Translations under genes and position numbers: made by a program
Source: Lineus longissimus
Lineage: Eukaryota; Nemertea; Pilidiophora; Heteronemertea; Lineidae
Reading direction: 5' to 3'
Assembly (NCBI RefSeq): GCF_910592395.1
Contig: NC_088313.1
Coordinates: 16,880,437 to 16,944,436, forward strand
DNA: 64,000 nt
Part shown: positions 1,076 to 64,000 of the stretch, in pieces
How positions within the stretch are numbered: the first letter of the stretch is position 1
Layout: every line of letters begins with the position of its first letter
The notes under the pieces: generated by a model
Seen by the model: only the letters and a program-made list of their open reading frames with translations
Told to the model about the DNA's origin: nothing
The model's database searches: none

Positions 1076-4000
1076 TTTATAATCGGTAATATGGTTTTGG
1101 AACCGTCCTTATATATACATATATATACGCAATAAAAATATATGTAAAGAATTCGTGCAACAATATATACTTCATTTCTTCTGGATCATTGATTCTTAAG
1201 TGCTTTTTTATATTTTTTCATACATACACTTCCTCAAGTCAAACCATATTCAGAACAAAATAGCACATCATGTCAGTGCACTGCCTTTCTAACTACATGT
1301 AGTTATATCTCTACATCTGCCTCAATTGATCGCAAGTAGACCACATAATGCTCTTCAGACCAGACCCAGAAATATCGTCTATGATGTTCTTATATTAAAA
1401 TAAAGAGTTCTATCTGTGCAATGTATTATCAGAGCGCGTGCTTTGTTCCCCGGACATTCTATCCTCAAATTGCTACGCCGGCATTATATCCTGGACGCTC
1501 CCCTTTCAATACAATGTACATGAAGTGTGGCTTGCGTTCATTCTACGCTACCTGGATTTCAATTGATAGTCATCTTATAAAGATCAAGACAACAATGTGT
1601 TTGACATGTGTAAAGCAAAAACGCTTCTTGCCGAGATCATTGCTTGTCATTTTGCACAATATTGCACAAGAGCCATCAAATGTGACCTATATACCGTACA
1701 TGCATAAGCAATATGGTATTAAACCATATATCTTTCATTGAGTTATGGTTAATAGGTATCTCGCCTGTTCAGAATATTCGCTCACAAAACTGATAATGGG
1801 CCGCAAATAATGATATATTATCATTGGGCTATGACTTTTGTGAAATATTACTTACAAGTATGTATACCTTGAAAGTAAAAAGCACTGCTATGGTCGTTGC
1901 CCCACATTTTTCATTTTGATGGTAAAATTGTAGGCCTCTGCGCTGTTCCATATCATTTTGCTAATCTTTCTCAACGTATGACTGATACCACTGAAGTTTT
2001 AAAGGACTATTTTACATTATTCTTTTCAATTGGAAGAATCCTCTGCTGGATTCTTTTGAAGACAAACCGTCTCTTGCTTAAACCAGCAAGGCGCCGCGCG
2101 CAACCACTTTCTTCGTTTTGAAAGAAGTGGCATCAATCACATCACACATCACACACCGCCTTTCGTATATCTGTGAGAAAAACCTATAGCTGTCTGCGCA
2201 ATGCGTTCGTTCCATCAAAAAAGCGTGGGGCATTGATATAAGCGTTGAAATTATCATTACCAAGTATTATGATATCAAAAAATCTTCAATACGCACGTAC
2301 AGAGCTAATCATTCATCTTAGTCTATAAAGACATAATATTATTTTGTGATGAAATAGAACACGAGATGCATTTTCCTTAAAAAAGAGAACGTTCTCGAGT
2401 GTCAATTTAAGAATACTTTTTGATATGCCACTGTGGCCTCCCGTGGTGAAAAAGGTTTATATTTTAAGTGTGCAATCAAAGAAATAATACCAAAATTGTG
2501 TAAAGCTTTTTTAGATTTATATTAAAATTTGAGAGATATCTTTTACTTGGACCAGTGCCCCTCATGTTCAAAACAAGTTTAGTAACTATGACTCGCTGTT
2601 ATCTTCTTCACTGAGAATTTTAAAGCAAAGCACTGACATTACGGTAAAAAGTAAGTGTCATCGCAAACTTGTCAGCAACCCAGCGATGGTCTTCGCCCAC
2701 AGTTACACTTTTCATGTAAAGGGCCTGGCCGATATCTCTTCATCAAGTATCGGAATTCCAAAATAACCTGATGAATTTTGCCAATAACACCTTAAAACAA
2801 GGGAAGCTTTCATTAGTACGGGGATACGTGGACGTAAGCAAGAGCAATCGGTCTAAACAACTCTAAGAGATTGATGGCATGCTGATAACCACCGCAAGGT
2901 ATTTCCAAAGAAAACGAATGGACGTCTTCAATGCAGCCCCTCTCGGTTTGATTGATGGCAGCGCTTAGAACCGCATCACTCGATATTCGCGACGGTCATG
3001 TTACAGTATCTTATTCAAAAGGGTTGACACCGCATCAACGATATATAACATTCACTCAGAAAGCGAACCACTACTTCGTGAGGAATGTTAGGTTAATCCA
3101 GCGACAGTAGGCCATAAGCCATGTGAACCCACGTGTTTTGGTGGTTTTTAAACCACAGGATGACAATTTTGATACTTATTCTATTGCTGGTAATATGTCG
3201 GAACAAATTTTTTGCAAGATGATATCAAGGTGATGATTGAGTTAAACTTATCAGGTTGTTGGTCATTACATTTTTGTTTTGGCATTTCTCGATGTTGCTT
3301 TGGTACTACGATTGGGTAACGCGATCTTTATCGGGTTAAGCAGACAACCTTGCCAGGCAATTACTGTATCATAAGGCTGGTCAATATCCCTAATCATTAA
3401 GTTATACAGCAATGCCGTTTGATCAATTATTTTATAAACATCATCTCGCAAAGCAGTTGGTCAATAGGACACCGACAACGCCACTTGATTTGATTATTGA
3501 TACTGTTCTGGTCGGTGAAAAGGTAGTGGAAGAGGACGATCTACGACACGTATATAGTGAAATATCAAAACTAGTACATGGCCTCTATAGATGATAATGA
3601 TAATATTGTTATTGACAACATTCTGCAGCCTGATGCGTCAATGCCTTTCGATTTTAACAAGCGGCCGCTATCTCGAATCGACTGAAAGCTTGAGACAATA
3701 AACTTCGTTGGTTGTTACTGAGAACATAATCCAAGCGAAATGCTGAAGCCTTGAAGCAGTTTACCTATTGCTCTTAATTATAGTTAAGCAATTTCTTTAC
3801 CTCAGCGCAAGATTTGGTTACCACTTGTCAAACTATAGTTACATTTTCTGAGGTGGTTGGCAGAAACTGAAGAAGTCAGACTGAGGTTAACACCACTTGT
3901 AAATTTGATAGATCGATAATAAGCTTAGAGCGCTACTGTTTTGGAAAGTTGTATACATGTACTTCTCTATGGCCATGGGCTGTAGGGAAAAGCCATGGAA

Positions 4001-7000
4001 TACGATAGATGAAAAGGCCAAATGTTTCCAACATTACGTACTAATGGCATTAATGGGGGTAAATGAATAATGACCTATGCATAACTTTAAGATAAAGACT
4101 TAATTTGATCACGGATGTCTAAACTGTATGTATAGACGTCCATGATTTGATAATTACGCTCTCAGTGGCTACATATTGTGAAAGAAAACATTTGCAATCA
4201 TCCCGTATCTTAAAGTCTAGATGACTGATGTGGTATTAGTAGTCCTGTAAATAACTTATCTATCTACATTTTTAAATATACGACCTGGGATTTGCCAGAC
4301 AATCTGGAATGCCGCTGGCAGCTGGTTAACCGCTCGTTTGAGGTTTCAAGACAGATGGACAGGTTCCTGTGTAAGCAATGAATACTTTCCTCTCAAATTG
4401 AGCAAGCAATATCTTTGTACAGGTGGTTCACACTTTTTGTTCAACCTTGACTCCGATCACTTGACTGAAAAAAATAATGAAATCATCATGTTTGTTCTCA
4501 AAAAGGAGCAGAGCCCCCATACAATTTCACATTTTACAGCAATTGTATACGATGAAAACAGAAAAGGACTATGGTTACTTTGAAGAACTGTAGGAGTTAG
4601 GCGCAAACGTATGAATATGTTCTGCTTTTGCTGTAGAATTTCTTCATTAGTTGACTAAATGCTACAGGACTTAAAAACTGTGGGTCGTATTCGCGACTGA
4701 GGAGGTTTGTAACATACTTTGTCTTACCGAAAGAGAGGCGATGCATCTCATATGCTGTGACGATAACACCAGGCTGGGTCTAGTTGCAGCATTCATGTGT
4801 AATAAGTGTATGCTTATAATTGTTCTTTTGTATACGTTTTGTTCTATACCTTCGTATTGTCTGTCGTGATCAATCAAGTTGTACGACTAGACAGGTGCCA
4901 AATTGTATGTTCTTTGTTCAAAGTACCTCAACTTGAAGTCAGAAGATGATAAATAATAATGAAACCAATAAACATCTGTGTGGCCTGATCAGTGCGTTGC
5001 CTTATCAAAGTGATCCTGGAACAACAAACTTCTTAAAGCGTCAATGTTTGCAGAGACTTTCGAATGCTGGGGAAGAACATTGCACAGCAGAGGAGCACAG
5101 GATGAGCTGCGGCGAAAAAATACCCAATTTATCAACCCCCAAATATAATCACTAACCAACCTAAATCGTTTTCCGGCCACCCGACTAATGACTGCTCCCC
5201 ATAAACATTTTGATATTTTCCTTTCTTTAACAGTCGCAGAACTGCGGTTCGAGTCTTGGTGATCGGCTTTCAGGAAACTGTACGCCGGTAGGTCTTTCGG
5301 TTAAGCCACGCAAGAAACCCCTTTCCGCGGCATGGTTCAGAGTGTTGTTCAAAAATCTTCATACTGTCATCAAGGTTCAGTTATCCTCTACCTGTCGAAG
5401 ATCACTGGAGACTTCCAATCAGGTTTCGACCAATCGGAAGACACCTACCATGCAATGTCGGCTCAGAATTCACGTGACCTTCAGGCTTCTGATTTGTCAA
5501 TACCCGAGTTGATATTCATGACACCATGCACGGCAAAACCATGACAGAGGGTATTCTTAATTTCACTAACACCCACAGCATAGCATGGAACCACGTCATG
5601 TATTAAATGAATCGTTTTCAGCCATGATTGAAATTCATCAAATGCATATAAGGGACGTGAAACATCCGAGTATCATTTTCAAAGCAACTAACTTTGCCTT
5701 GCGTTAATTAACTGCCAGCTTTGATAGAGCGACTCCAACCCTTAAACGATGCAGAGGCAGAATGATAGACATGATTCATTGAACGAATTGCCGACTCGAC
5801 TAAACTAGCTTCGTAACTTTTCTATCAGTTATAAACCTGCGCAAAAAAGTTCCTTGCTTTTGCGAAGTTGGTTGTATGTTTCCATCTTGAGAAAAGGCCT
5901 ACTCAGCAAATGCCATCGGTTTCCTCGGCAGAATATCGTTGCAACTCAGCTTTGTCAGGACACAATATATAAAGCAGCTGAATATACACCCTTGGCTTAT
6001 ATTTTTGGATGATTTCTTAATGTTCTGTCATCTATAATGTCCTCAGCGGTTTTGTCATGTGTTGTGTGTACCGAGTGTGCAGGATTGTGCTTGTCATTGA
6101 CGAATCGTGAAGTCAGATGCTTCTCTTATAAATGTTTCACTGTTGATTCGTCTGTCGATTTCAATGCTTTACATAATGCACGATTGTTCTGCCTTCATAA
6201 CAATTACATTAATATGATAATACTGGAATTACATGTATCTACATTACATCTCATCCATACAAACATTCGCTCTCTTTTAGACCACACCGCCTTCATGCCA
6301 ACTACAAAACAATCTGAACCTAGTCGTCAAGGGCTGTTCACCGGTAGGTCCAGCATGACGTGTTTGGCGTGTACAAATCCAATGCAACTTAGATTTCCTC
6401 ATAGTTTTGATGCGAAATTCTGTTTGCCTGACCCCTTGTTGATCCATTACCTTTAGATTTCCTTTGAGTATTTTAGTACTGCTCTCTCATCTTATTTCAT
6501 TATTAACTAGGATTCATTAAGGGCATTTTGATTGCAATACAAGTCAAAATTTAACCCGCAATTGACAATTATTTTCCTTCAGAATTGAAATTTAGCTTTT
6601 TGTGCTCGAGTAAATTTTGAATTTTGTTCTGTTCATTCATCATACATGCGGATTCTACAGCTTACATATTTAGTTTTTTCTCTGACTCTGAGGACTGATT
6701 ACTGAGGAATGCGGTTCGCCGTCGCTAATGGCCCACAGCAAAAATTGTGCACCCAAACCAAAACCCATTTCTGGGATAAAGATGGTTTACTTCTAAAGCT
6801 CCGCACAGGCGGGCGATTAGTCGCTTGGACCTGCGACAGCCACGACAACAAGACGGGCCAATCGGCGGCCGCATTCCAGCTGCCATTATCATGTTCCAGG
6901 TCGCATCGAATAAATCACTCGTTTTATACAGTCCTCAAAGTTCGTTCCTGCATCCATCGCCTATATCTTCCCTATTCATCAACAGGTTGTTTACCTACTT

Positions 7001-8784: not shown

Positions 8785-9489
8785 GTATGTAAACCATATT
8801 TCAAATCTCTTAACGATATCGTGCAGATACAAAAAAACTAGATGATCATACTACTGTATACCTGCAACGTTCTTGGGCGTACTTATTTAATGCTCTCATC
8901 ACTTACGAACTTGTTGGATCGGAAGTTGCTTAATAAGTTGAAGTTACGACTTCCCAGACGTGTGCCAGTGAATATAATTAACTCTGACGATAACCTTGTT
9001 ATCTTATTCTTATTTCAACCGATAGTTAAAGTACTTCGTATACTGTAATTTACATAACCCAGAGTTATATATCACGGCATACCTGACATTTTGTTGATGT
9101 ATTGTTCATTTTGATTGTGTCAAAGTATTGTTTATTGTGGTGTCCGCCTGGGGTTCCCCATCTCTAACCAGTGTCTCCATCTCTGTTGGCTTCGTTTATG
9201 GTCTTGTCCCGGAATAAGATAAACTAAAATCTGCTGTTCCGTGACAGCTGCTGCTGGTGACCAATGACCAAGTGTTATCTATTTTTGTGCACCTCCTGCC
9301 ATTACCGTGTAACAAGTGGTCATTGCTGGTTGGTCTGAGCATCCTTTTGACTACCACAGTAGCTGATTGACAAACTGAATATTGAGTTCAAGTAAAGTAG
9401 AGACGTCGGAGGAAATCTACACGCGGTAGAAGAGAATGGCCTAACTAGCACTCATATCCGAATAAATACCAAATTTCTGTGCATTTCAG

Positions 9490-12400
9490 GAATATGCGTC
9501 CGCCAGAAGTTGGATCTCGTCTTCATGATGGACGAATCGGCCAGCATCTACCCGCGTCAGTTTAAACAACAGAAAGACTTCGTCAAACAGATTGTCGAAG
9601 GATTCGAAATAGGGCCAGAAGACACCCAGATAGGCCTCCTGACGTTTGGATGGGGCGCCAAGGTCCGTTTCAATATGAACTCTTACAAGCGAAAATCGCA
9701 TGTTCTTCAGGCGATAGATTACGTTCGACAGCGAGGCGGAGACACGGACACTGCTGAGGCCCTCCGAGTGGTCCGTGAATATTGTTTTGATGATGATCAT
9801 GGAAGCAGGGCGAAATCAGGAGATGTCCGTCAGGTTGCAGTGATTATTACCGATGGAATATCCTTGGATGGTGGTAAAACAATCGAAGCTGCCAAAAAGA
9901 CTAAGGAAAAAGGGATCATCATCATAACCATTGGTGTTGGACAGAAGATCAAGTTTGAGGAATTAGAAGAAGTAGCCTCTCGGAAGGACTACGTATTTGC
10001 AGTGGATGACTATGACGAGTTAGCTTCTCTTGTCAGTAGAATTGGACCAAGTGCTTGTCGACCCATACAGGACCAACCTCAGGCCCCCCGAGGCCCAACA
10101 GACCCTGATGCGCCAGGGGACCAACCACAACTCCCGGCAAGCCACGCGGACTCTCTTGGTCTACCTACCCGGCCTCTGGCTGTAGTGGCCTCTGAAGCAA
10201 TGACCATAAGTACAAAGGGTAAGCGATCCCATTTGAAATACGAATATGACTAAAAATACTCTAGATCAGAATATGCTGTGAAGAATTTCGGCGTGGGAAT
10301 CTCAAGAAATAATCAACGGTAAAAAACTGTCTTTTCTTAAGGGGAGATATTAAGAATACTTCAGTGTACATGTCCTACACGTGTTCCTTGATAAATAGGG
10401 GCAATATTGTCATCTGATCACAATCCGTATCCATAATAGAGGAGGCAGATTACATGTTCCGCATCAGATATTCCTGCGCAGGGAGGCCAATTCATAAGTC
10501 GTTCAACGGTGTGTTTTTAGGCTGAGAGATACCACTGAGATGGAATGAATCTAAAATATAATTTCTTTTTCAGGATGTGAGAACAAGGTCCTCGATCTTT
10601 TTTTCATCCTCGATGTATCATTGGGGTACTTTGATATCCGGCGTATGATGGGCTTCGTGGCCTCCACGGTCTACGCCATGAACGTAACCGGGTCAAAAAC
10701 GAGAATCGGTCTGATCACCTACAGCAATAACGTTCACGTCTACTTTGAGTTGAACGAGAATATGGATAAGCAAGAGGTGTTACAGGCCCTACGAACTGTT
10801 CGGCGGGTCCCGAAGCGGACGCGGAATGCAGCGAACGTCCACGAAGCCTTAAAGACGGTGCGAGCGCATCTCTTTGACCAGAAGTACGGCGCGAGGAAAT
10901 TTGCTGCCAAGGCTGTTGTTTTGATCAGTGATGAATCCGAACCGGACAACGGCACCTTCAACGAAGCTGCGAAGATCAGGGAGCTGGGAGCAACGATATT
11001 TGCCTTCGGAGTACGGCATTGGGTCAGAGCGAAGGATATCTTACCACTTGTTGGCTTGAAGACGCCTGAGTATATGTTCCTTGTGGACAGTTATAAGAAG
11101 CTAGCCGATAAACGGGCACAGCTGAATGACATGCTCTGCAAGGTTCAGGCAGCATTAGGAGTAGAAATGGGTAAGTGAACAGAAGTCTTTTTTGAATTTC
11201 AAGTGATGCAAGCGCTTGTTGCATCGACAGTTTGCTTTTTTTCAGGGGAGTTCACCTCATGACTTCTGTCTTTCGGGCGGCCGAAAACGACCGTCCATAC
11301 CGTATTACGGTAGAGCAAGAGAGTCGGATCGATGCTTTTTACCCCAGGATATACCCAAACGTCACTGATATATTTCGATATTTGAGCACTAGACTAGACC
11401 TAGCTTTAAGATCACTATATTGTTATGACTACATGTATGCTGCAGTCAGTATATTTGAACCTTTCTCTCCTAGATTCCTGCAACAAACCAAACCCAGTAG
11501 ACTTGGTATTCATCCTCGACGAGTCCTCCAGCATCCCGTACAAGTCTTTTGTAGAGGAAAAGGATTTCATGAAAAACGTCGTAAACCAGTTCAAGATCGC
11601 CCCAAAAAGGTCGAGAGTTGGCTTGATAAGCTATTCGACCAATGCTACTGTTCAGTTTTACCTAGATACGCACAAGACGAATGCTGGTGTTACGAGTGGC
11701 GTGGACGAATTGAGGAGGGACGGCGGAGATACGAGCACGTGGGAGGCACTCCGTGTGTTGCGCACTTTTGGTTTCCGTGACGGCGTCAGGTATGTAACTA
11801 TTTGGACGCTTCAACCAAAAAGCAGTTCGTGCCAATATATTCTCTGAATGAAAGTCTTGAATGGAGATGAACCTTGATCGCTTTATCACATCCTGACTCT
11901 TTTAGACTTGCACCATCTCACACCTCGCTAGTGGACGTATCGTAGGCACACTGCAACTCATTGGTGGCCGAGGTCATTCCTTCTGGTCAGAGTACTGTGT
12001 AAAAGCTTATACTGTAGTTTGTGAACATTTCACAAAGGCAACATGAGGTAGTCCCGAGAGACATTTTTCTTGTGTTAGATGTATTACCGGCAGAACAGTC
12101 ACGCCTATCACGGATCTTTACCTAAGTTGGTCGATGTACTGGCAAAACGGCTGGTCATTTCACGGACATTTAACTTAAATCATTGCTATCATCATTTTAT
12201 ATTCAAGGCACAGGAACCGACGAAGGCGGCGAAGGCGACACGGAGAGAAACCTAAAATCGGCATCGTGATCACAGACGGGAAGTCGCAGCGACCATGGGA
12301 GACCGCCCGGGAGGCGCTGAAGGTCCAGAAGACTGGCACGATCCTATTCGCAGTGGGCATAGGGAACAACATCAGTTTCGATGAGCTGCACAGCATCGCC

Positions 12401-32700: not shown

Positions 32701-35700
32701 TTAGACTTAACACGTATAGCAGTATATGACAAGATAAGACAATTCCGTTTTTCCTCTTTAAAAGTATTTGTTTATGTCTTATGTTTTTGTGTTTTTGCCT
32801 GCAAAGAGAAATAGTTCCTCACTCGAAACACTAACTGACGTACCTGCATTCGGCGGCCGAAGTTCTGCTCATAAACAGTCGTTCCTGTGGTCAAATTTCC
32901 TTTGACGAACGCCCATCGCTTAAATGGGAGAGTTTCGTTAAATTCCGTGGAATCTGGTTTTGAATTCGGCGCACTGAACCTCTTGACGTCACCACCTCCG
33001 GGGATCTTGCAACGGTCAAAAACGATGACGTCATCCCCAGATTTAATGGCCACCGCGCAAATGCAGGTTGCAGATGTCTTACATTTGTTGGTAACGATTT
33101 GAACCTGTAATCGAGCGTATAAAAGGTGGGTAAGATGATGATAATGACTCTCATTTGCCTTTCGCTTTAGTTTCCAATAATTACAAAAGTAAGGTCAATT
33201 CTGATATATGAAGTTCGCTATTTTTGTCGACTACAGACCAAACGGACGAATTCCTTTCGGACATCAGACCCGCTCAAAATATAAACAAAGAAGTTAATGC
33301 TGAAATTTACTGTCCAAAGCAAGTCGAAAATGTTCATGTAAGAAACTGCAATAGTGTAATATTGTGGAATGAGTTGGATGACATGAGCCAGTATAGCGTT
33401 AGGAAGGGATAGTAGAAGAAAACTGCATGATAATGATAAGAGCATATTCGTAACCTTCCTGATCTTCACCTCTTTGCCTGAGTTTCGTTCCATCTTTGGG
33501 CGACATGTTATTGAGGAAACAGTGGCAACACTCAGGATTAAAGTAAAACCTACTGGCGTGTTGACGACAATTATTCCTGCTACGACGTAATGAGATGTTT
33601 GGTGATGTGCCTCCATTGCACATCCTATGCCTATTATGTATTTTGTTTGCCAGAAATGGTAACATTGCAAGAGAAATGTACTGACATGAAGTATACAAAT
33701 CTGGAGGTTCGCCGCTTTTTTCGTACATATATTCCTCCCCGTGATAGGAAACGTAATAACGATGAATCGTTCTAATGCAACCAACACAACCAACCAACCA
33801 CAAATTGTGTGGACGGATGTGACGAGAAACTCACAAAGAATACAAGCAACATCAGATGTCAATGCCATAAAAATATCAACACCATTTACCATTGCCATAA
33901 AGTTGACGTACCCGAGAAAGCGAACAGTCAACGCTAAATTATCATACACTGCTAAAGTAGCTAAGAACGAACTATACGATGTCTTCCGCATCTTAACTGA
34001 TACCATGATAAAAAAAGAACATATGTTTCCGACGATGCCACACAAGATACAGGGAGGAAGAAAACATATGCGTATCGTCCTTTCCCATTTTTGAGTGAAG
34101 AGTTGTATTTTACTCTCGAAAACCTGCGCCCAATAATTAGCTTGCCATGATTCCGATATCCTACACGATGCCTTTCGAAGGCCATCACTGTTGCAAGTGA
34201 AGGTGTCTACCGTATTCTTCTCAATTTGTGCCGATGAATCGGTAAGGACACTTCCATAGAACAATGATTGCTGCGAAAATGTGTCTGAGTTTGTGGCGGT
34301 TGTCATGCCATGAACACTTGCGGAACTTGGAGTCGCAACGCACAACGCGATGACCCAAGCCACTATTAACCCCCGAATCATTCCGTTGTGGAGCCAAATT
34401 TGGATCAATATTATTGACACTGTTGAGGATGAACGCTCTTCACTCGTATTCTCATTTAGGAGCAGGCTCGCTTCCGAATATTCTGATCGCGCACTCAACT
34501 CTTCACTCTCATGATCGAATCATCTTTGAGCAGAGCCGTTTTAAGTTGAGAAGACGAAGCTCCTCTCCCAATGCAATGTGCTTTGATATTCGTGCTATTG
34601 CAATTGCTATTTTGCGATTTTACTGGTATCGCGTGTGTTTATCATTATCATCTCGCATTACATGTATCATGAACATAATAACGACAAAATTACGATTTTT
34701 TTTCCAATACACACTACTTTAGCGTCGGCACACCCTTCTGTCGCAATGTGCTACGGTGGGTATAACACGCGTTATATTGTTACTTCTGAAATTGTAATAC
34801 GATAGAATAAAATTAATTTACCTCCGCGTTGTCTATTGAATGCTTGTACATGACGAATATCCCTGAGAGATAGTTCTGATAGTACCTGTAACAGAAATGA
34901 TATTTTAGTTTTCGGACGAGGTTAATTGTCGGAAGTGGTTGGTCCACAGGACTGTGATAGTTTTCATAAACAACTCGTGTACCCCTACCGCACGTATTGT
35001 TGAACCTGATCCGGTACCATGACATAGCGATATCTCAAATAGGTTCTTCAAAAAGCGTACTCAAATGGGTTTTTCGATGACAAATATGGCATATAAGTTA
35101 TTACACCAGAATGTACAATAAATGCTCCTTTTAATTACGTGCAATATCTTTTAGCTCACCTCTGTCATACGGTTCAACAGTATCTTTGAGAATGGAAGTT
35201 GCTTATTGCAATGCTACAGTACTTACAGGCCGTCAAATGACGTCATATGGGGATCCCCAACTGCTTGGCATAAACCAATGGCATCCTTGTCTATGACAGT
35301 TGCTTCTTTGCTGCTGATGTCACGTGATGCAATGACCTTCCCACCAACGACTTGCTTGTACTTCAGAATAAAGTTCCTTTTCTGTTGGCCATCCATCTTG
35401 CCGTCAATAGAGGCCACCACTGGTACTGTTTGTTCTGTCTTGTAGGTAGCGTTGGTCAATGTGAAGGAGCAGTAGTCACTGGCGTTGGCGACGCTATATT
35501 TTCCTATGACCGCCTGCGGAATTGGCTGCTTTGTTGTTATAAACCTGAATTAAGGTGAATGAGGAAACGCTTATGTGCAGGTGTTATCCGATGTTGTACC
35601 GACTGCGACTGATGTGATTAGTAATAGACTACGGCAAGATAGAAAGACGAGGCAACAGATTTGTGCATAAGGTACCTCAATGCATCCTTGTGCTGCATGG

Positions 35701-52922: not shown

Positions 52923-55347
52923 AATAACGAATTAGCAGCCACCCAAAGTAAATAACAATAACTAACAGAAACAAAAAACGAAATCATTGATCTTTTTTGG
53001 CGTATTTTCTGCAACTTTTTTCAGTTTTTCAAAATATATTGATGGACAATTTATTTTCCAACCTTTAAACAATACATAATGACAATTATAAATATATTGT
53101 AGTATGCAACAGTCTGGATGACTCACTTGAGAAAAATCATTATAGTTTTAAATGTCATCCGCTCAATGTTTGAAAACTACAGTCGATACCAACACCAACC
53201 TTTTAAAGGACGTGTACCAATAGTGCTGCCAATGCATGAACCTGGTCCACAAGATTAATCTTTTCCCAAATAATCAAGCAACTTTTTTAATCAACTTTTA
53301 AATGATGATAATAATTATTATGACAATGATAGTGATGATGACAATGATAATAATAAAGATAGTGGTGATGATAATGATGAGAGTAATGATAATAATGCTA
53401 ATAATATCGAATAAATACCGATAAAAATTTAATACAGCCACATTTTCAGCTTTTTTCACTTTCACCTATGTCGCAGTTTACCAGTCTGTTGATTCTTTAA
53501 TTAGACTAAGATCTGAAAAACTGAGCCTTAGATATGAAAACAAGAAGGAAAGGTCAGAATCCAAACTCATTATTCATGAATTTCGAATTCTATTAATGTT
53601 TACAAAAAAAATTGATATAAAATGAGTGGACCAAAAACATTTGAACTATCATTTATCTGGAAGTAATACATGTAATTTGAAATGATAAAAATATTGAAAC
53701 CTTGCACAAAGTATGAAGATAATTAGTCGCCAAAATACCTAACACTCTATTTTAAGTTAAAACTAAATTCTTGAATTAATGATACATTTGAAATAATGTA
53801 TTTTTTGATACTTTGCAAAACTTCTCAACACCATGTTTTTTTTTTAAATTTCATTTTCATTTTGCCACCATCAATAGTAGCATGTTACCAGAATTATAAA
53901 AACACAGTCATAAATACAAATCTATCATTAAAGTCTCAATGATGAAATATATAAAAAAGAAAACGATCATCTGTCTAATATTCGAATTAAATAGCTGCAG
54001 AAATTTATTTTTCGAAGATAACCAACATCTGTCCCATTTTGATTTTTAAACAACAGTGATCGTAGATAACGTGCAATGAAATCGATGCAAGAAATGCCTT
54101 TTATGATAACAAAAGGGAGGCATAAGTGATTGTATGACGCTCAGCCGGATGTCTCGCGCATGTTTTTAGTATCCTAATTGAGGCGGGGCGCAATGACGCA
54201 TTCAGTTACGTACAGTATTATTTTTAGTATGGTTAGTTCGTGTGATAGATAGCTCTAGTCTATTCTTTCCATCCTTGGCTAATTCTCGTAGTGCCCCATT
54301 AGGTATTTTCCTACAAATATTGCACTTTAAGCATACCGCGTGACTGTGCCGCAAGTAGTACTGTAGATATCATCATTGTGTATTGTGACAATGGCGGCGT
54401 CCAATGTCCCGATAAAAGTTGCCATCATCGGTCATAGCAAGTATTGATTAAAGAATCCAAACCTGGTCATAGCTTTGTTCGCCGACTCAGGGATTTCTCT
54501 CAGCCGTCCCTCCCCGATTTTGCGTCTATTGCGCCAACCCAGCCTAGGCCCAACTTAATAGATTTAGACAACTGTGTCATTAGTTGGTACTTTATTGATG
54601 GGGCGCCGTGGAGATTGCGAGGTCGTCCTAGGCTATCGGACGAAGGCTGCAGCTTCGAGCCGGACGTCATCTTTCTCCAAATCGGTCTCAGCGATTTGGA
54701 TAGTCACGAGTCTGACTTACGCCATTTCAGAGTTGTTTGTTTGTATGTTTAGGTGATTTAGAGGCATGTCGTGCATGCCTATACGTAGGACAGCTCATAT
54801 CTCGTCGCGTTACTAGGCTTATTCCCTAGAGGACTAGAAACTAATCGCTTCCTCAAGGATTTCTGCAACCCAAACGGGCCAGTTATTTTCTGGCAACACA
54901 AAGGTCTAACCTAGCCCGAACAGAATGTATATGGCACGGACATGGTGCCTTTAAACAGCTTGGGCAATCTCAAGCTGTATCGCAGTGTTCGGGCTGCTGT
55001 CCGCTCCGCGGTGATTGCTCGGCAGGATTAGGGTGTATCTTGGAATATATTTTTTTGCGTCTCAGGCGCTAGCTCTACATACATTTATTTGGGATTGTGC
55101 GTTTGTACGCAAAGGTTCAGATGGATTTTTCTGCTTCGCCAGTCAGTCTTCTATACCGTCCCTTATATTTTTGACAAAGATTCTGAGGGCCAACAGGCCA
55201 AATTAGCAAGATAACTTCTCATGAAATCGTATTTGAAATTATTTATGATTATTAATTTCAGGGTCATACGAACTGTTTATAGATGCCCGTGCCATCGCCA
55301 TAGACTGCCCAAATATCACGAGATCTCACAGGGAGGCGCGTTGTTTT
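52923..55347 (+). repeat. 2.7-kb tandem repeat unit, copy 2
   Basis: Nearly identical to copy 1 from ACGAATTAGCAGCCACCC onward, but without the 230-bp insert. It is cut at its 3' end in the CACAGGGAGGCGCG region, where copy 3 begins abruptly. Confidence 0.85.
54391..55022 (+). pseudogene. SGNH/GDSL hydrolase-like pseudogene, copy 2
   Basis: It has the same architecture and the same frame-breaking repeat of GGTCATAGC after the Ser motif as copy 1, plus a stop within that insert. The open piece 54444-54752 encodes GHSFVRRLRDFSQPSLPDF through LQIGLSDLDSHES and stops. Sharing of the lesion means the gene was dead before the unit was duplicated. Confidence 0.6.
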
Positions 55348-56240
55348 ACCAGGCTGGATGTCTCGCGCATGTTTTTAGTATCCTAATTGAGGCGGGGCGC
55401 AATGACGCATTCAGTTACGTACAGTATTATTTTTAGTATAGTTAGTTCGTGTGATAGATAGCTCTAGTCTATTCTTTCCATCCTTGGCTAATTCTCGTAG
55501 TGCCCCATTAGTCATCTTTCTCCAAATCGGCCTCAGCGATTTGGATAGTCACGAGTCTGACTTACGCCATTTCAGAGTTGTTTGTTTGTATGTTTAGGTG
55601 ATTTAGAGGCATGTCGTGCATGCCTATACGTAGGACAGCTCGTATCTCGTCGCGTTACTAGGCTTATTCCCTTAGAGGACTAGAAACTAATCGCTTCCTC
55701 AAGGATTTCTGCAACCCAAACGGGCCAGTTATTTTCTGGCAGCACAAAGGCCTAACCTAGCCCGAACAGAATGTATATGGCACGGACATGGTGCCTTTAA
55801 ACAGCTTGGGCAATCTCAAGCTGTATCGCAGTGTTCGGGCTGCTGTCCGCTCCGCGGTGATTGCTCGCCAGGATTAGGGTGTATCTTGGAATATAATTTT
55901 TTGCGTCTCAGGCGCTAGCTCTACATATTTGGGATTGTGCGTTTGTACACAAAGGTTCAGATGGATTTTTCTGCTTCGCCAGTCAGTCTTCTATACCGTC
56001 CCTTATATTTTTGATTCTGAGGGCTAACAGGCCAAATTAGCAAGATAACTTCTCATGAAATCGTACTTGAAATTATTTATGATTATTAATTTCAGGGTCA
56101 TACGAACTGTTTATAGATACCCGTACCATCGCCATAGACTGCCCAAATATCACGAGCTCTCACAGGGAGTTGTTTTACCAGACTGGATGCGGCGCAGGCA
56201 TTTGCTGTCGAAGGCATCAAGACGTTTCTACTCAGTCTGA
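55348..56240 (+). repeat. Truncated tandem repeat unit, copy 3
   Basis: It starts inside the unit at TGGATGTCTCGCGCATG, lacks about 400 bp between TGCCCCATTA and GTCATCTTTCTCC, and then continues to CTACTCAGTCTG. The included pseudogene fragment (55511-55867) carries only the block III part and the C-terminal part of the SGNH-like gene. Confidence 0.8.
55511..55867 (+). pseudogene. SGNH/GDSL hydrolase-like pseudogene fragment, copy 3
   Basis: It begins within the block III region and ends at the LYRSI(R)-like C-terminal region. The N-terminal Ser block has been deleted. Confidence 0.5.
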
Positions 56241-57304: not shown

Positions 57305-59815
57305 TTACTCTAATTCAGTACTTGATGCGCCAAACGTATCCACAGGTTCAAAACGGTATGATCTTCTGACCAAAGACTCCATTTGTCTCTGCTCCTCCGC
57401 ATTTAGGCCCGCTATTTCTTTTTCGTCCTCCAACTTCTCAATTCTCTCGCGGCAGAACGGGAACTCGAAGAACAAGACGTCATATCCGGAACAGGAATTC
57501 TTTTTCATTCCTCTGTAGTAGGCAGTACTACTGATACAGGAGATGATCAGTAGGATATAGGGGACGAGGGTTATAAACATGGTGACACCAGCCACAATTT
57601 GGAGAGCGGTGCTATTCCCGAGACGTGTACACGTATCGTCCCGAAAGTAATCAATAACCAAGAAGATGTCGAAGATGGCGATAATCAAAGAGGCGATCCC
57701 CGTCAGCAAATAGACATACCGGAGATTTGGAAGCACTTTGAAGATGTCCTTCCTCCATTTGTGCGTGACTATGGTGACGAGGAAGAGTCCGGCCATGTTG
57801 GCCAGGGCGGTGATCCACGCTAGGACGGAGAATACGAACAGAAATGGAAGGTCCATCGGGAATGGCGGATCGCCATCTGTCTGATTGAAGCAGTTCCGTT
57901 CTAGATCCGACCAATCTGTCTGCGCCCATGCGACTGCCTCAGCTGCCAGTAACCCTGTTGAAGCGAGCATCAACACCAACCAGATGACGCAGTTTACCAG
58001 AGCGTAATGCTTATGACTAGTGGAGATGCTTTTCAATTCATCAACGATGCGGCGACTCTCCAAGTAAGATTTATCCGACTCGCCCATGATGTTGTCATCG
58101 CGAACGAAGATACCATGCATCTTGTGGTTCTGGCCGTCATAGTCTACCGCCTTGGCTATCTTGATCACGTTCTTTCCGACCTTTTCTTTTGTCCATTCAT
58201 TGGCATCGGTTCCTTGGATGTACGTGTGCAGCGTCTCCTTCATATGGGTAACTTTGATCGGGTAGGAGGCAAGGATACCGTCACCAAGCGTATCCTGAAC
58301 GTCTACGGCATCTCTCAAAATCTGAAATGCATAATATTTCAAACAATTATACATTATCTGATCTTCTCCGAACCATTTCTCAAAATCGGGAGCAGGGGAC
58401 AATTTCCTTTTTTCCTTTTTGTTTGCCCTCAATGCCACCCTTGATGGTCACCAAATTCTAGAAAAAAGAATATGAGCCAGTAACTACTCTCGTCATTCAC
58501 AAGCTAGTAAATATTATTTTTTCCAGCCTCTTTTCAGTCAGTTGATCTGAAATTTGCGGATGCACCAAAAACCTTTTCGATTTCATATGCAGCATCACCA
58601 CACATATTTAGAATAGGTTTTACTTGAGGGCGATAAGGCACATAGACCTTGTGGACTAAAGAGAAAACTTGTCACCCTGTCCGTAATGGCTCATATCCGT
58701 ATGTGCGCCGTGTAAAGTGGAAAACGCTTCACGCAGGGATTACTTGTGAAATGGAGGATAGATGACAGTATTACCTTGATCGCCCTGTAGCATACACCTT
58801 TATAGTTGACAGCCGACACCTTATTCATCAGTTCCTTCTCATTCTTGGTGAACGACAGCTTCCAGAAGTCATGAGCCGGGATGAACTGGCACTGAAGCTG
58901 ATCCTGGTCACGGAGAAACTGCGCATAGGAGCGCAATTTAACTTCGTGGAAGAACGAAGACTTTGGGCTAACATTGTAAGCCATAGTCAGGTCGACCTTA
59001 ACATTCCGATGTGTTTGTGGCTTGGTCCCATTCCTCTGATTCTCATACGGAATCTTCAGGACGAATTTGACTGCTGGGCCAGCTTTCTTTGTCATAATCG
59101 ATTTGTCTGTTCTGAATAGATCCTTCAAGATTTCATCAATGGAGGATTTAAAGGCATCATGTTGATCTTTTGCGAGGATTTCCTCATGCTTACCACTTTC
59201 GGTTTCGTAAAGTTTGAAGAACGTCTTTGATTCCAAGTTACTCTGCTTAGCTTTAATCTTGCTCATTTGTGCAACCTGCGCATCATAGTTGTTCAATGGC
59301 ATTATATACTGAAAGTCGAATTCGTGGGGATCTCCGACCTTCGTGTTCTCGTAGAAGCTTCCACATTCAACAATTTCACCCTCGCTAAACTGGGTATGCT
59401 GTAATCCCTGTTTAATCATATCAATGCACTTGATCACAGTTTCTGCAACACTACATCGGTCATCGTTTCTCACCCTTTTCTTCCTGTCCATGTACAGCAG
59501 GTACTGTGAGAGGTATTTCTCTTCGGATGGAGAAAATTTGACACCAGCCATATGCTTCTTCTCTAGGTCGACGTACTCACTTTCTAAAAGTGGGGACACA
59601 TTTTGTGGGAACCATTCCACTTGGGGTGGCTTTTCAGATTCACCATTTACTGGTTGGCCACCTGCAGGGATTTCCTCGTCATGTTGTTGTTGTTCCTGGT
59701 CGGTGTTATTGTCCTCCTTGGCCGCGCGATTCTGTTCACCGCCATGCATCTCCGGATCACCCACGGCCTCTTGGTCTATAAGGCATTGGGCGATATCTTT
59801 ATCTTGATCCGCCAT
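57305..59815 (-). CDS. cGAS-like (Mab-21) nucleotidyltransferase fused to a four-helix membrane domain
   Basis: Two exons, 58775-59815 and 57305-58321, meet in phase 0 (AAG|gtaata ... cag|ATT) and give 685 residues. The start Met follows an in-frame TAA. Residues 1-70 are acidic and Gln-rich. The NTase core has Gly152-Ser153, Glu165 and Asp167 (HEFDF) 12 residues after the Ser as in cGAS, and Asp275 (VKVDLTMAY). WKLSF at 318-322 begins the C-lobe, which continues across the intron (CYRAIK|ILRDAV, ASYPIKVTHMKETLHTYI). No cGAS-type zinc-thumb Cys/His cluster is visible. Hydrophobic helices lie at about 454-478, 504-531, 548-571 and 586-612. Loops 1 and 3 carry Cys and N-glycosylation sequons (NQTD, NSTA), so both protein ends should be cytoplasmic. 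Known cGLRs sense nucleic acid and make cyclic dinucleotides. The activity and membrane location here are inferred. Confidence 0.82.
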
Positions 59816-62892: not shown

Positions 62893-64000
62893 TTACTCAT
62901 AGTTATTAGTGGTGCACGGCCTGTGAGACCACTGCGCTACGTAACGAAACCATATGGTGCCAATCCACTTCGATCCAATCTGTACGGGACATCCAGCATG
63001 AAGTGTCCTTGCATCCGAAGTACCATTACGGTGCATGTTCCACCAAAAAGCGGCGCTTCCTTTCACAGCTGGCACACGTGCTTCAGCAGTAGGAAACGCA
63101 GTTGCACCGCCTATATGAACGTCTTCGAGGTAAAATAGCAGAGTTGCGTATCGGTCATCGTCAAGTAAGGTATCCCATGCGATATGATGGTCTGGTGGAT
63201 AGAAAAAGTCATGATGGGGTGTGTAAAAGCCTCCTGGACCGTAGTTTACAACTTGCATGTCCTCGTTATAAGGATGATCTGCCACAGAATTGAGCTCAGT
63301 CCCGAGGCCAGTGATCTCCTCAACCCGGCGGTAAACCTTTTCCATTGTCGAATCTTTGATATTAAACCAGGCATGTCGACTAACGCGCATGTCGCTCGTG
63401 TCAATACCGTCCTCAGCCATTGTGGTTATCTTTGATCGCTTCAGATGTTGCTTCGAGAATTCTTTAATCCGATCTATCTCGTCCTTGTATATTATGTCGT
63501 GGTAAATTAGCATCTCTGGCGTCAGGTTGATCAATTCTACCTTCGTCGGCCGATAGGGTATGGCCGATCTCCTAAAATAACATTTAAGTTCCTTCACCTC
63601 AGCAGGCGGCTTTTCGAGATCTCCCCTGCACAATGCCTCGTATTTGGTATCTGACTTAGCACTCTTATCCGTCAAGGCCAGTGACTGGAGAGCGCCTGCC
63701 TTCTCCTTTAGAGAAGCCAAGTAATTCGTAGCAGCGACATTGGCCGGATCGAACGCTACTAGTTCTTTAGCTACCCTAACAGCCGTTTCATAATCGCCGA
63801 ACTTTTCATGAATCTCCGCCATCTGTCGATGGAATCTATACAAATATATGAAGGCATATCGAAAGTCATCCCCATCCCTTATTATCTGAGCAGTTTCGTT
63901 TAACCACAGTATCGCTTTCTTTGGCTTCCATTTCTCCAAAGCAACCATGGCGATTTCATGCAGCTCGTCGACAGTTAGGGGATCCGTTTTCGTCCCATTC
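62893..64000 (-). CDS. P4HA: Collagen prolyl 4-hydroxylase subunit alpha, C-terminal part (runs off the window)
   Basis: The ORF is open from the window edge to TAA at 62893-62895 with no intron. It begins in the helical peptide-substrate-binding/TPR region (KFGDYETAVRVAKELVAFDP) and ends in the 2-oxoglutarate/Fe(II) dioxygenase domain. The iron ligands are the His and Asp of TPHHDFF (near 63210-63220) and the His of TLHAGCPV (near 63000); the 2-oxoglutarate Lys is in GSKWIGTIWF. RVSRHAWF and GGATAFPTAEARVPAVKGSA are typical of the family. It hydroxylates prolines in collagen-like chains in the endoplasmic reticulum, as an alpha subunit paired with protein disulfide isomerase. The N-terminus and signal peptide lie beyond the window. 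The paralogue number cannot be assigned. Confidence 0.92.
   Translation of the reverse strand, partial: NGTKTDPLTVDELHEIAMVALEKWKPKKAILWLNETAQIIRDGDDFRYAFIYLYRFHRQMAEIHEKFGDYETAVRVAKELVAFDPANVAATNYLASLKEKAGALQSLALTDKSAKSDTKYEALCRGDLEKPPAEVKELKCYFRRSAIPYRPTKVELINLTPEMLIYHDIIYKDEIDRIKEFSKQHLKRSKITTMAEDGIDTSDMRVSRHAWFNIKDSTMEKVYRRVEEITGLGTELNSVADHPYNEDMQVVNYGPGGFYTPHHDFFYPPDHHIAWDTLLDDDRYATLLFYLEDVHIGGATAFPTAEARVPAVKGSAAFWWNMHRNGTSDARTLHAGCPVQIGSKWIGTIWFRYVAQWSHRPCTTNNYE

Follow-up and report, generated by a model that had tools for sequence, protein, structure and literature searches.

In the ribbon worm Lineus longissimus (Nemertea), a single gene, LOC135489631, joins a cGAS-like nucleotidyltransferase (NTase) of the Mab-21 family to a predicted four-helix membrane domain. 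The gene lies in a window of 64 kb, which is the whole stretch of DNA analysed here (C6:16880437-16944436 of the 391-Mb assembly), and the coordinates below are those of this window unless a contig is named. The explanation that I favour, with reasonable though not firm confidence, is that the product is a membrane-anchored enzyme that makes a cyclic dinucleotide at the membrane, probably for the receptor STING. Since the fusion gene belongs to a small family of the same plan, immune enzymes of this type may be able to act while held in a membrane. cGAS-type sensors are generally regarded as soluble, with a product that diffuses to STING, and an enzyme family built into the membrane would mean a different wiring, in which the product is made locally, sensing is confined to one compartment, or events at the membrane control the enzyme directly.

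Gene structure

The gene is on the minus strand, with its ATG at 59815 and its stop ending at 57305. Its two exons are separated by a phase-0 intron of 453 bp (58774-58322, GT...AG), and the joined frame encodes 685 amino acids. An earlier note on this DNA had placed the exon junction at 58775/58321, and these boundaries are confirmed: in a protein search, the joined product equals the NCBI uncharacterized protein LOC135489631 of Lineus longissimus (100% identity over 100% of the length). The gene is organised as follows, where TM denotes a transmembrane helix.

58775..59815, minus strand: exon 1, residues 1-347, equal to LOC135489631; N-terminus (residues ~1-89, acidic, low confidence), spine helix, NTase core (GS152-153, E165/D167, D275) and start of the C-lobe
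58322..58774, minus strand: phase-0 GT-AG intron; the same codon boundary is interrupted in 8 other modelled family loci
57305..58321, minus strand: exon 2, residues 348-685 and stop; remainder of the Mab-21 C-lobe (348 to ~449), then the membrane domain
57527..58003, minus strand: predicted four-helix membrane domain, residues ~454-612; loop 1 with C491/N493, loop 2 with C578/N583, and a putatively cytosolic TM2-TM3 loop that carries FKVLPNLR (from sequence comparison and model)
57308..57526, minus strand: predicted cytosolic tail, residues ~613-685; conserved C...FF..P.C patch, then low-confidence sequence

The nucleotidyltransferase domain

The earlier note had described an intact acidic triad in a cGAS-type core, and the catalytic residues are indeed all present, namely GS 152-153, E165, D167 and D275. 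The Pfam Mab-21 family (PF03281) recognises the protein above its curated cut-off (28.4 against 24.1 bits, E 2.1e-6), as it does 4 of the 6 public Lineus family proteins, P0003 and P0004 falling under it. Mab-21_C (PF20266) stays below its cut-off (17.0 against 24.1 bits); the fold comparison extends over this lobe. The profile match to human cGAS spans the core into the C-lobe, and the predicted structure aligns with cGAS over residues ~105-448, a range in which the exon junction (347/348) falls within helix 338-353. The assignment of the region after the intron to the C-lobe, also proposed earlier, thus agrees with the model, and a fold that would place it elsewhere was not seen.

Like human and mouse cGAS, the Lineus protein possesses both lobes, the metal triad and equivalents of K414, S435, Y436, K439 and W375. 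It differs in having C for T211 and K for R376, in its C-terminal membrane helices, and in an acidic N-terminus where that of cGAS is basic. It also lacks the zinc thumb, as had been noticed from the letters: the cGAS segment (H390/C396/C397/C404, numbers consistent with the profile alignment) is mostly an insertion relative to the family and has no counterpart in the family alignment, and the pattern is absent in LOC135489631.

Other proteins of the Mab-21 fold suggest a different role. MiD49/51 and ITPRIP are regarded as non-catalytic nucleotide-binding adaptors, and ITPRIP/ITPRIPL and MiD49/51 have a single N-terminal membrane segment and a degenerate active site. The Lineus protein, by comparison, has an intact triad and several C-terminal helices, with none at the N-terminus. 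Moreover, the three metal-binding acids and the pocket residues K, S, Y and K are kept in 9/9 models of the family described below, which a role that is structural alone would not require. I therefore consider it improbable that the Lineus protein is a membrane adaptor of this non-catalytic kind. There are precedents for it nonetheless: ITPRIP is located at the outer nuclear membrane (PMC6550788), and TMEM102 and MIEF1/2 have roles in mitochondrial organisation (PMC7718949), such that ITPRIP/ITPRIPL and MiD49/51 (MIEF2/1) resemble the Lineus protein in a Mab-21 fold tied to a membrane or organelle. Mab21L1-type proteins are described as retaining the active site although no product is known for them (PMC9980059).

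The membrane domain

Four hydrophobic stretches are found (residues ~454-472, 513-531, 552-570 and 589-607), all of them downstream of residue 452, with no stretch above the hydrophobicity threshold upstream of it. The charge pattern suggests that the N- and C-termini are cytosolic, and places outside the two loops, ~33 and ~15 residues long, in which sequons N493 and N583 and cysteines C491 and C578 sit. This arrangement of helices, sequons and cysteines is the one reported in the earlier note. In the predicted structure the last C-lobe helix and TM1 form one continuous helix (430-481), an arrangement under which the enzyme might also be controlled from the side of the membrane.

The domain shows signs of constraint. 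An alignment of four sequences from two paralogue groups, namely LOC135489631, its C4 paralogue P0002 and the metagenome pieces P0008 and P0009 (five rows, LOC135489631 being entered twice), has 49 invariant columns. The equivalents of C491 and C578, one per outer loop, are invariant in all four, as are the FxVLPNLR of the TM2-TM3 loop and the FF..P.C that follows TM4, and the loop-1 sequon reads NQT, NKT, NGT and NKT, respectively.

These features bear on whether the membrane part is more than an anchor. The protein could be a receptor-type enzyme, in which the membrane domain, or a partner at the outer or lumenal loops, senses a signal and switches the cytosolic NTase in the way of a membrane cyclase. 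The constraint on the membrane domain, loop cysteines included, is in keeping with this, and the modelled continuous helix offers a possible signal path. However, the loops are small for a ligand-binding ectodomain, and the number of helices varies among relatives, and I judge this reading unlikely, if worth keeping in mind. Less likely again is that synthase and effector are combined in one chain, with the helices acting as a pore or transport unit whose gating signal is a nucleotide made or bound by the NTase, and no need for a separate receptor. Several hydrophobic helices do follow the NTase directly in 9/9 modelled family members, and Foldseek ranks an archaeal CNNM magnesium transporter first for the membrane model, though this match is not significant (E 0.14, rmsd 23.5). 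Against it, no channel or transporter family rises above its Pfam cut-off, and the STING-type exon of the Lineus genome (see below) means that a separate receptor may be available.

Paralogues in the Lineus genome

A search of the Lineus genome with the 685-residue protein gave 21 matches, which pair into ten loci. Six are the public proteins P0001-P0006 (LOC135489631 included), three (L026, L027 and L028) were newly modelled, and one (L031) was excluded because of a break in its frame. The triad, 4-6 C-terminal hydrophobic helices and a phase-0 intron at the equivalent codon are present in each of the nine modelled loci. In 8/8 of those besides LOC135489631, the intron follows the lysine codon equivalent to K347, and joining at this codon gave P0002, P0005 and P0006 exactly (models L024, L029 and L032). 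The junction pattern was a search criterion for the joined models, and its independent support consists of the splice contexts at the ends of the tblastn matches and of the 3/8 models that equal public proteins. Models L025 and L030 start later than the public P0003 and P0004 (L030 past the GS), and the public sequences were used in their place.

By hydrophobicity, four helices follow the C-lobe in P0001 and P0002, five in L026, L028 and P0005, and six in P0003, P0004, L027 and P0006. When the profiles of the 4-helix and 5/6-helix domains were compared, the match had a probability of 14.8% (P 0.0018) and took in 76 columns surrounding the FK..P motif of the TM2-TM3 loop, which is no more than suggestive of a common origin. 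Searched on its own, the four-helix domain matches well only LOC135489631 and its C4 paralogue in the Lineus genome, a third match having E 0.425 and three internal stops. The 5/6-helix relatives (P0003-P0006, L026-L028) have in common a segment with [KR]W that precedes one of the later membrane helices, for example KWRAPDGELYEFLPE in P0004, and this segment is missing from the 4-helix pair.

A search for the Mab-21 family returned 25 matches in the Lineus genome at E <= 0.001, exon 1 of LOC135489631 among them, and none in 14 control genomes. Eight of these loci were fetched, and five other Lineus Mab-21 sequences from them were placed in a tree with the nine family members; L003 and L005, which the motif filter missed, and L006, a duplicate from the same gene as P0002, were left out. 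A branch supported at 100/99 separates the nine members from these five sequences; it is also a branch at which the tree tool flags long branches meeting. Within the family, the 4-helix pair (99/99), P0003/P0004/L027 (97/98) and the remaining members (96/98) form subgroups.

Two further observations concern these loci. In L031 (C12:2261500-2271000, ~2050-4920), exon 1 shifts frame shortly before the usual junction, and the locus has either decayed or acquired an additional intron. On another contig (C17, 285028-911831), five Mab-21 matches lie in open frames of 1038-2561 amino acids, which suggests that Mab-21 genes of great length are clustered there.

Relatives beyond Lineus

Apart from Lineus proteins, the protein searches matched just three pieces from JGI metagenomes, P0007, P0008 and P0009, in searches that require shared five-letter words, one of which scored just the 7,994 best word-sharing candidates, so that absence elsewhere is not implied. 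P0007 (63% identical) is the counterpart of exon 1 and extends to the same junction, while P0008 and P0009 are 57% and 43% identical to LOC135489631. P0009 holds the C-lobe and the helices in a single frame, and the fusion therefore exists outside the LOC135489631 gene model; by their sequences, the metagenome pieces show the putative membrane part to be present in at least one genome other than that of Lineus. Because P0009 is nearer to P0002 (61% identity), each of the two four-helix paralogues seems to have a counterpart elsewhere, in one other genome or in several.

The recurrence of the fusion also speaks to the gene model. Chance or mis-joined frames were rejected because the public model is identical and the same junction is shared by 8 other loci. 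It is likewise very hard to credit that LOC135489631 is an annotation error in which two adjoining genes, or a pseudogene, were fused. The two-exon junction is known here only from genomic sequence and annotation, but the public protein is identical to the joined product, the junction recurs across the family with three joined models matching public proteins letter for letter, C-lobe and helices both lie inside exon 2, and the metagenome pieces conserve the sequence.

A proposed cyclic dinucleotide synthase at the membrane

A search of the Lineus genome for the STING ligand-binding domain gave one match (C11:2036599-2036703, 27.4 bits against a cut-off of 27), with none in the 14 control genomes. 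Compared with the PDB, this exon piece found only STING chains, some of them fusion constructs, among the best 60 of 75 matches (best E 2e-5).

From these elements I infer a mechanism for the membrane-anchored synthase. The two-lobed NTase domain would lie on the cytosolic side, its last helix continuing as TM1 of the four-helix domain, with the two short loops of the latter facing the lumen or the outside and probably linked by a disulphide. Binding of a trigger would lead the NTase to link two nucleoside triphosphates at the E165/D167/D275 metal site, and the resulting cyclic dinucleotide would be released beside the membrane of residence, within reach of STING or of some other receptor. In most animals STING combines a membrane domain of four helices with a STING domain, the helices lying N-terminal to the ligand-binding domain (PMC10732462). 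The Lineus protein resembles it in having four membrane helices and a cytosolic nucleotide-related domain, and would belong to the same signalling axis, but it carries its helices C-terminal to an enzyme domain where STING, a receptor, carries them at the N-terminus. Given the four-helix membrane domain of STING, a signal would have less far to travel to its receptor if both proteins resided in one membrane.

Several observations weigh against this interpretation. Li et al. required the motif h[QT]GS-X8-20-[DE]h[DE]h-X50-90-h[DE]h for their 3,020 animal cGAS-like receptors (cGLRs; PMC9980059). The residue before GS is C in 10/10 family rows, where the motif wants Q or T, and 105 residues lie in the gap before the third acid of LOC135489631, where it allows 50-90; I therefore term the protein cGAS-like and do not class it as a cGLR. 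Confidence in the full-length model is moderate (mean pLDDT 61.4, blocks of ~46-70 in the membrane part, from a 6-row alignment), and position 321, S378 in cGAS, is S in 5/10 rows and C in 5/10. No relative, among them the tetraspan families with which the earlier note had proposed a comparison, could be assigned to the membrane domain through Pfam, PDB sequences or fold (model mean pLDDT 62.8). As for the receptor, just the 35-position start of the STING domain is recognised, and two open frames downstream gave no Pfam STING match, nor did the one that was run against the PDB find any. These frames being unrecognised, the claim made here is of a STING-type exon and not of a complete STING.

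The departure from the cGLR motif is shared within the family. The gap to the third acid is 87-132 across 6 public Lineus proteins, the first gap is 11 in LOC135489631, the catalytic residues are all kept, and the strict pattern is matched by 0/7 sequences tested. Taken literally, the Li et al. screen would have skipped the Lineus membrane family. Structural homology to cGLR/CD-NTase enzymes, another of their criteria (PMC9980059), is nevertheless seen in the predicted model. The Lineus Mab-21 genes L004 and L008 also read CGS (CGSAAEGTK..LPDEFD), and no strong hydrophobic stretch occurs in their fetched open frames; the CGS form is therefore not limited to the membrane family.

As to precedent, no domain is added in 87% of the cGLRs listed by Li et al., and TPR, ankyrin or further cGLR domains are the fusion partners that their text names, architectures under 0.5% being pooled as 'Other'; in the main text 'transmembrane' occurs twice, each time for STING (PMC9980059). 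The Lineus enzyme departs from these named fusions, and from a cGLR such as Cv-cGLR1 (8gjw), in its C-terminal membrane helices. Fusion of a cGAS-like enzyme with a membrane domain of several passes was not described in the titles and abstracts returned by literature searches, whose coverage excludes most subscription papers and all supplementary tables. Overall, the NTase with its triad, the post-intron C-lobe and the C-terminal four-helix domain proposed in the earlier note stand, while a cyclic dinucleotide product, a sensing role and a channel-like membrane part, which it also raised, stay at the level of proposals.

More tentatively, ribbon worms may possess a whole family of membrane-embedded cGAS-like synthases, with 4-6 helices depending on the paralogue, that make cyclic dinucleotides, are possibly sensing or switched via the membrane, and feed a STING in the same membrane. 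If true, this family would be a membrane-receptor branch of cGAS-type immunity. The nine modelled paralogues with intact triads constitute a small expressible test set, in an animal with a STING-type exon.

Other features of the window

Elsewhere in the window, an open frame on the minus strand (62896-63999), which runs to the window end, contains a 2OG-Fe(II) oxygenase domain (Pfam E 5.8e-14) and weaker TPR matches, and by its sequence resembles a prolyl 4-hydroxylase alpha subunit. A seven-transmembrane receptor of the rhodopsin/Srw type is encoded in a single open frame at 33221-34519, minus strand (Pfam 7tm_1 E 2.8e-9), and neighbouring open frames on the plus strand (9396-10250 and 11410-11844) possess Von Willebrand A domains (E 1.7e-43 and 4.5e-21). 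Finally, downstream of the LOC135489631 gene, two near-identical open frames of 75 amino acids (54845-55072 and 55691-55918, plus strand) lie ~850 bases apart, and are probably a duplicated repeat.
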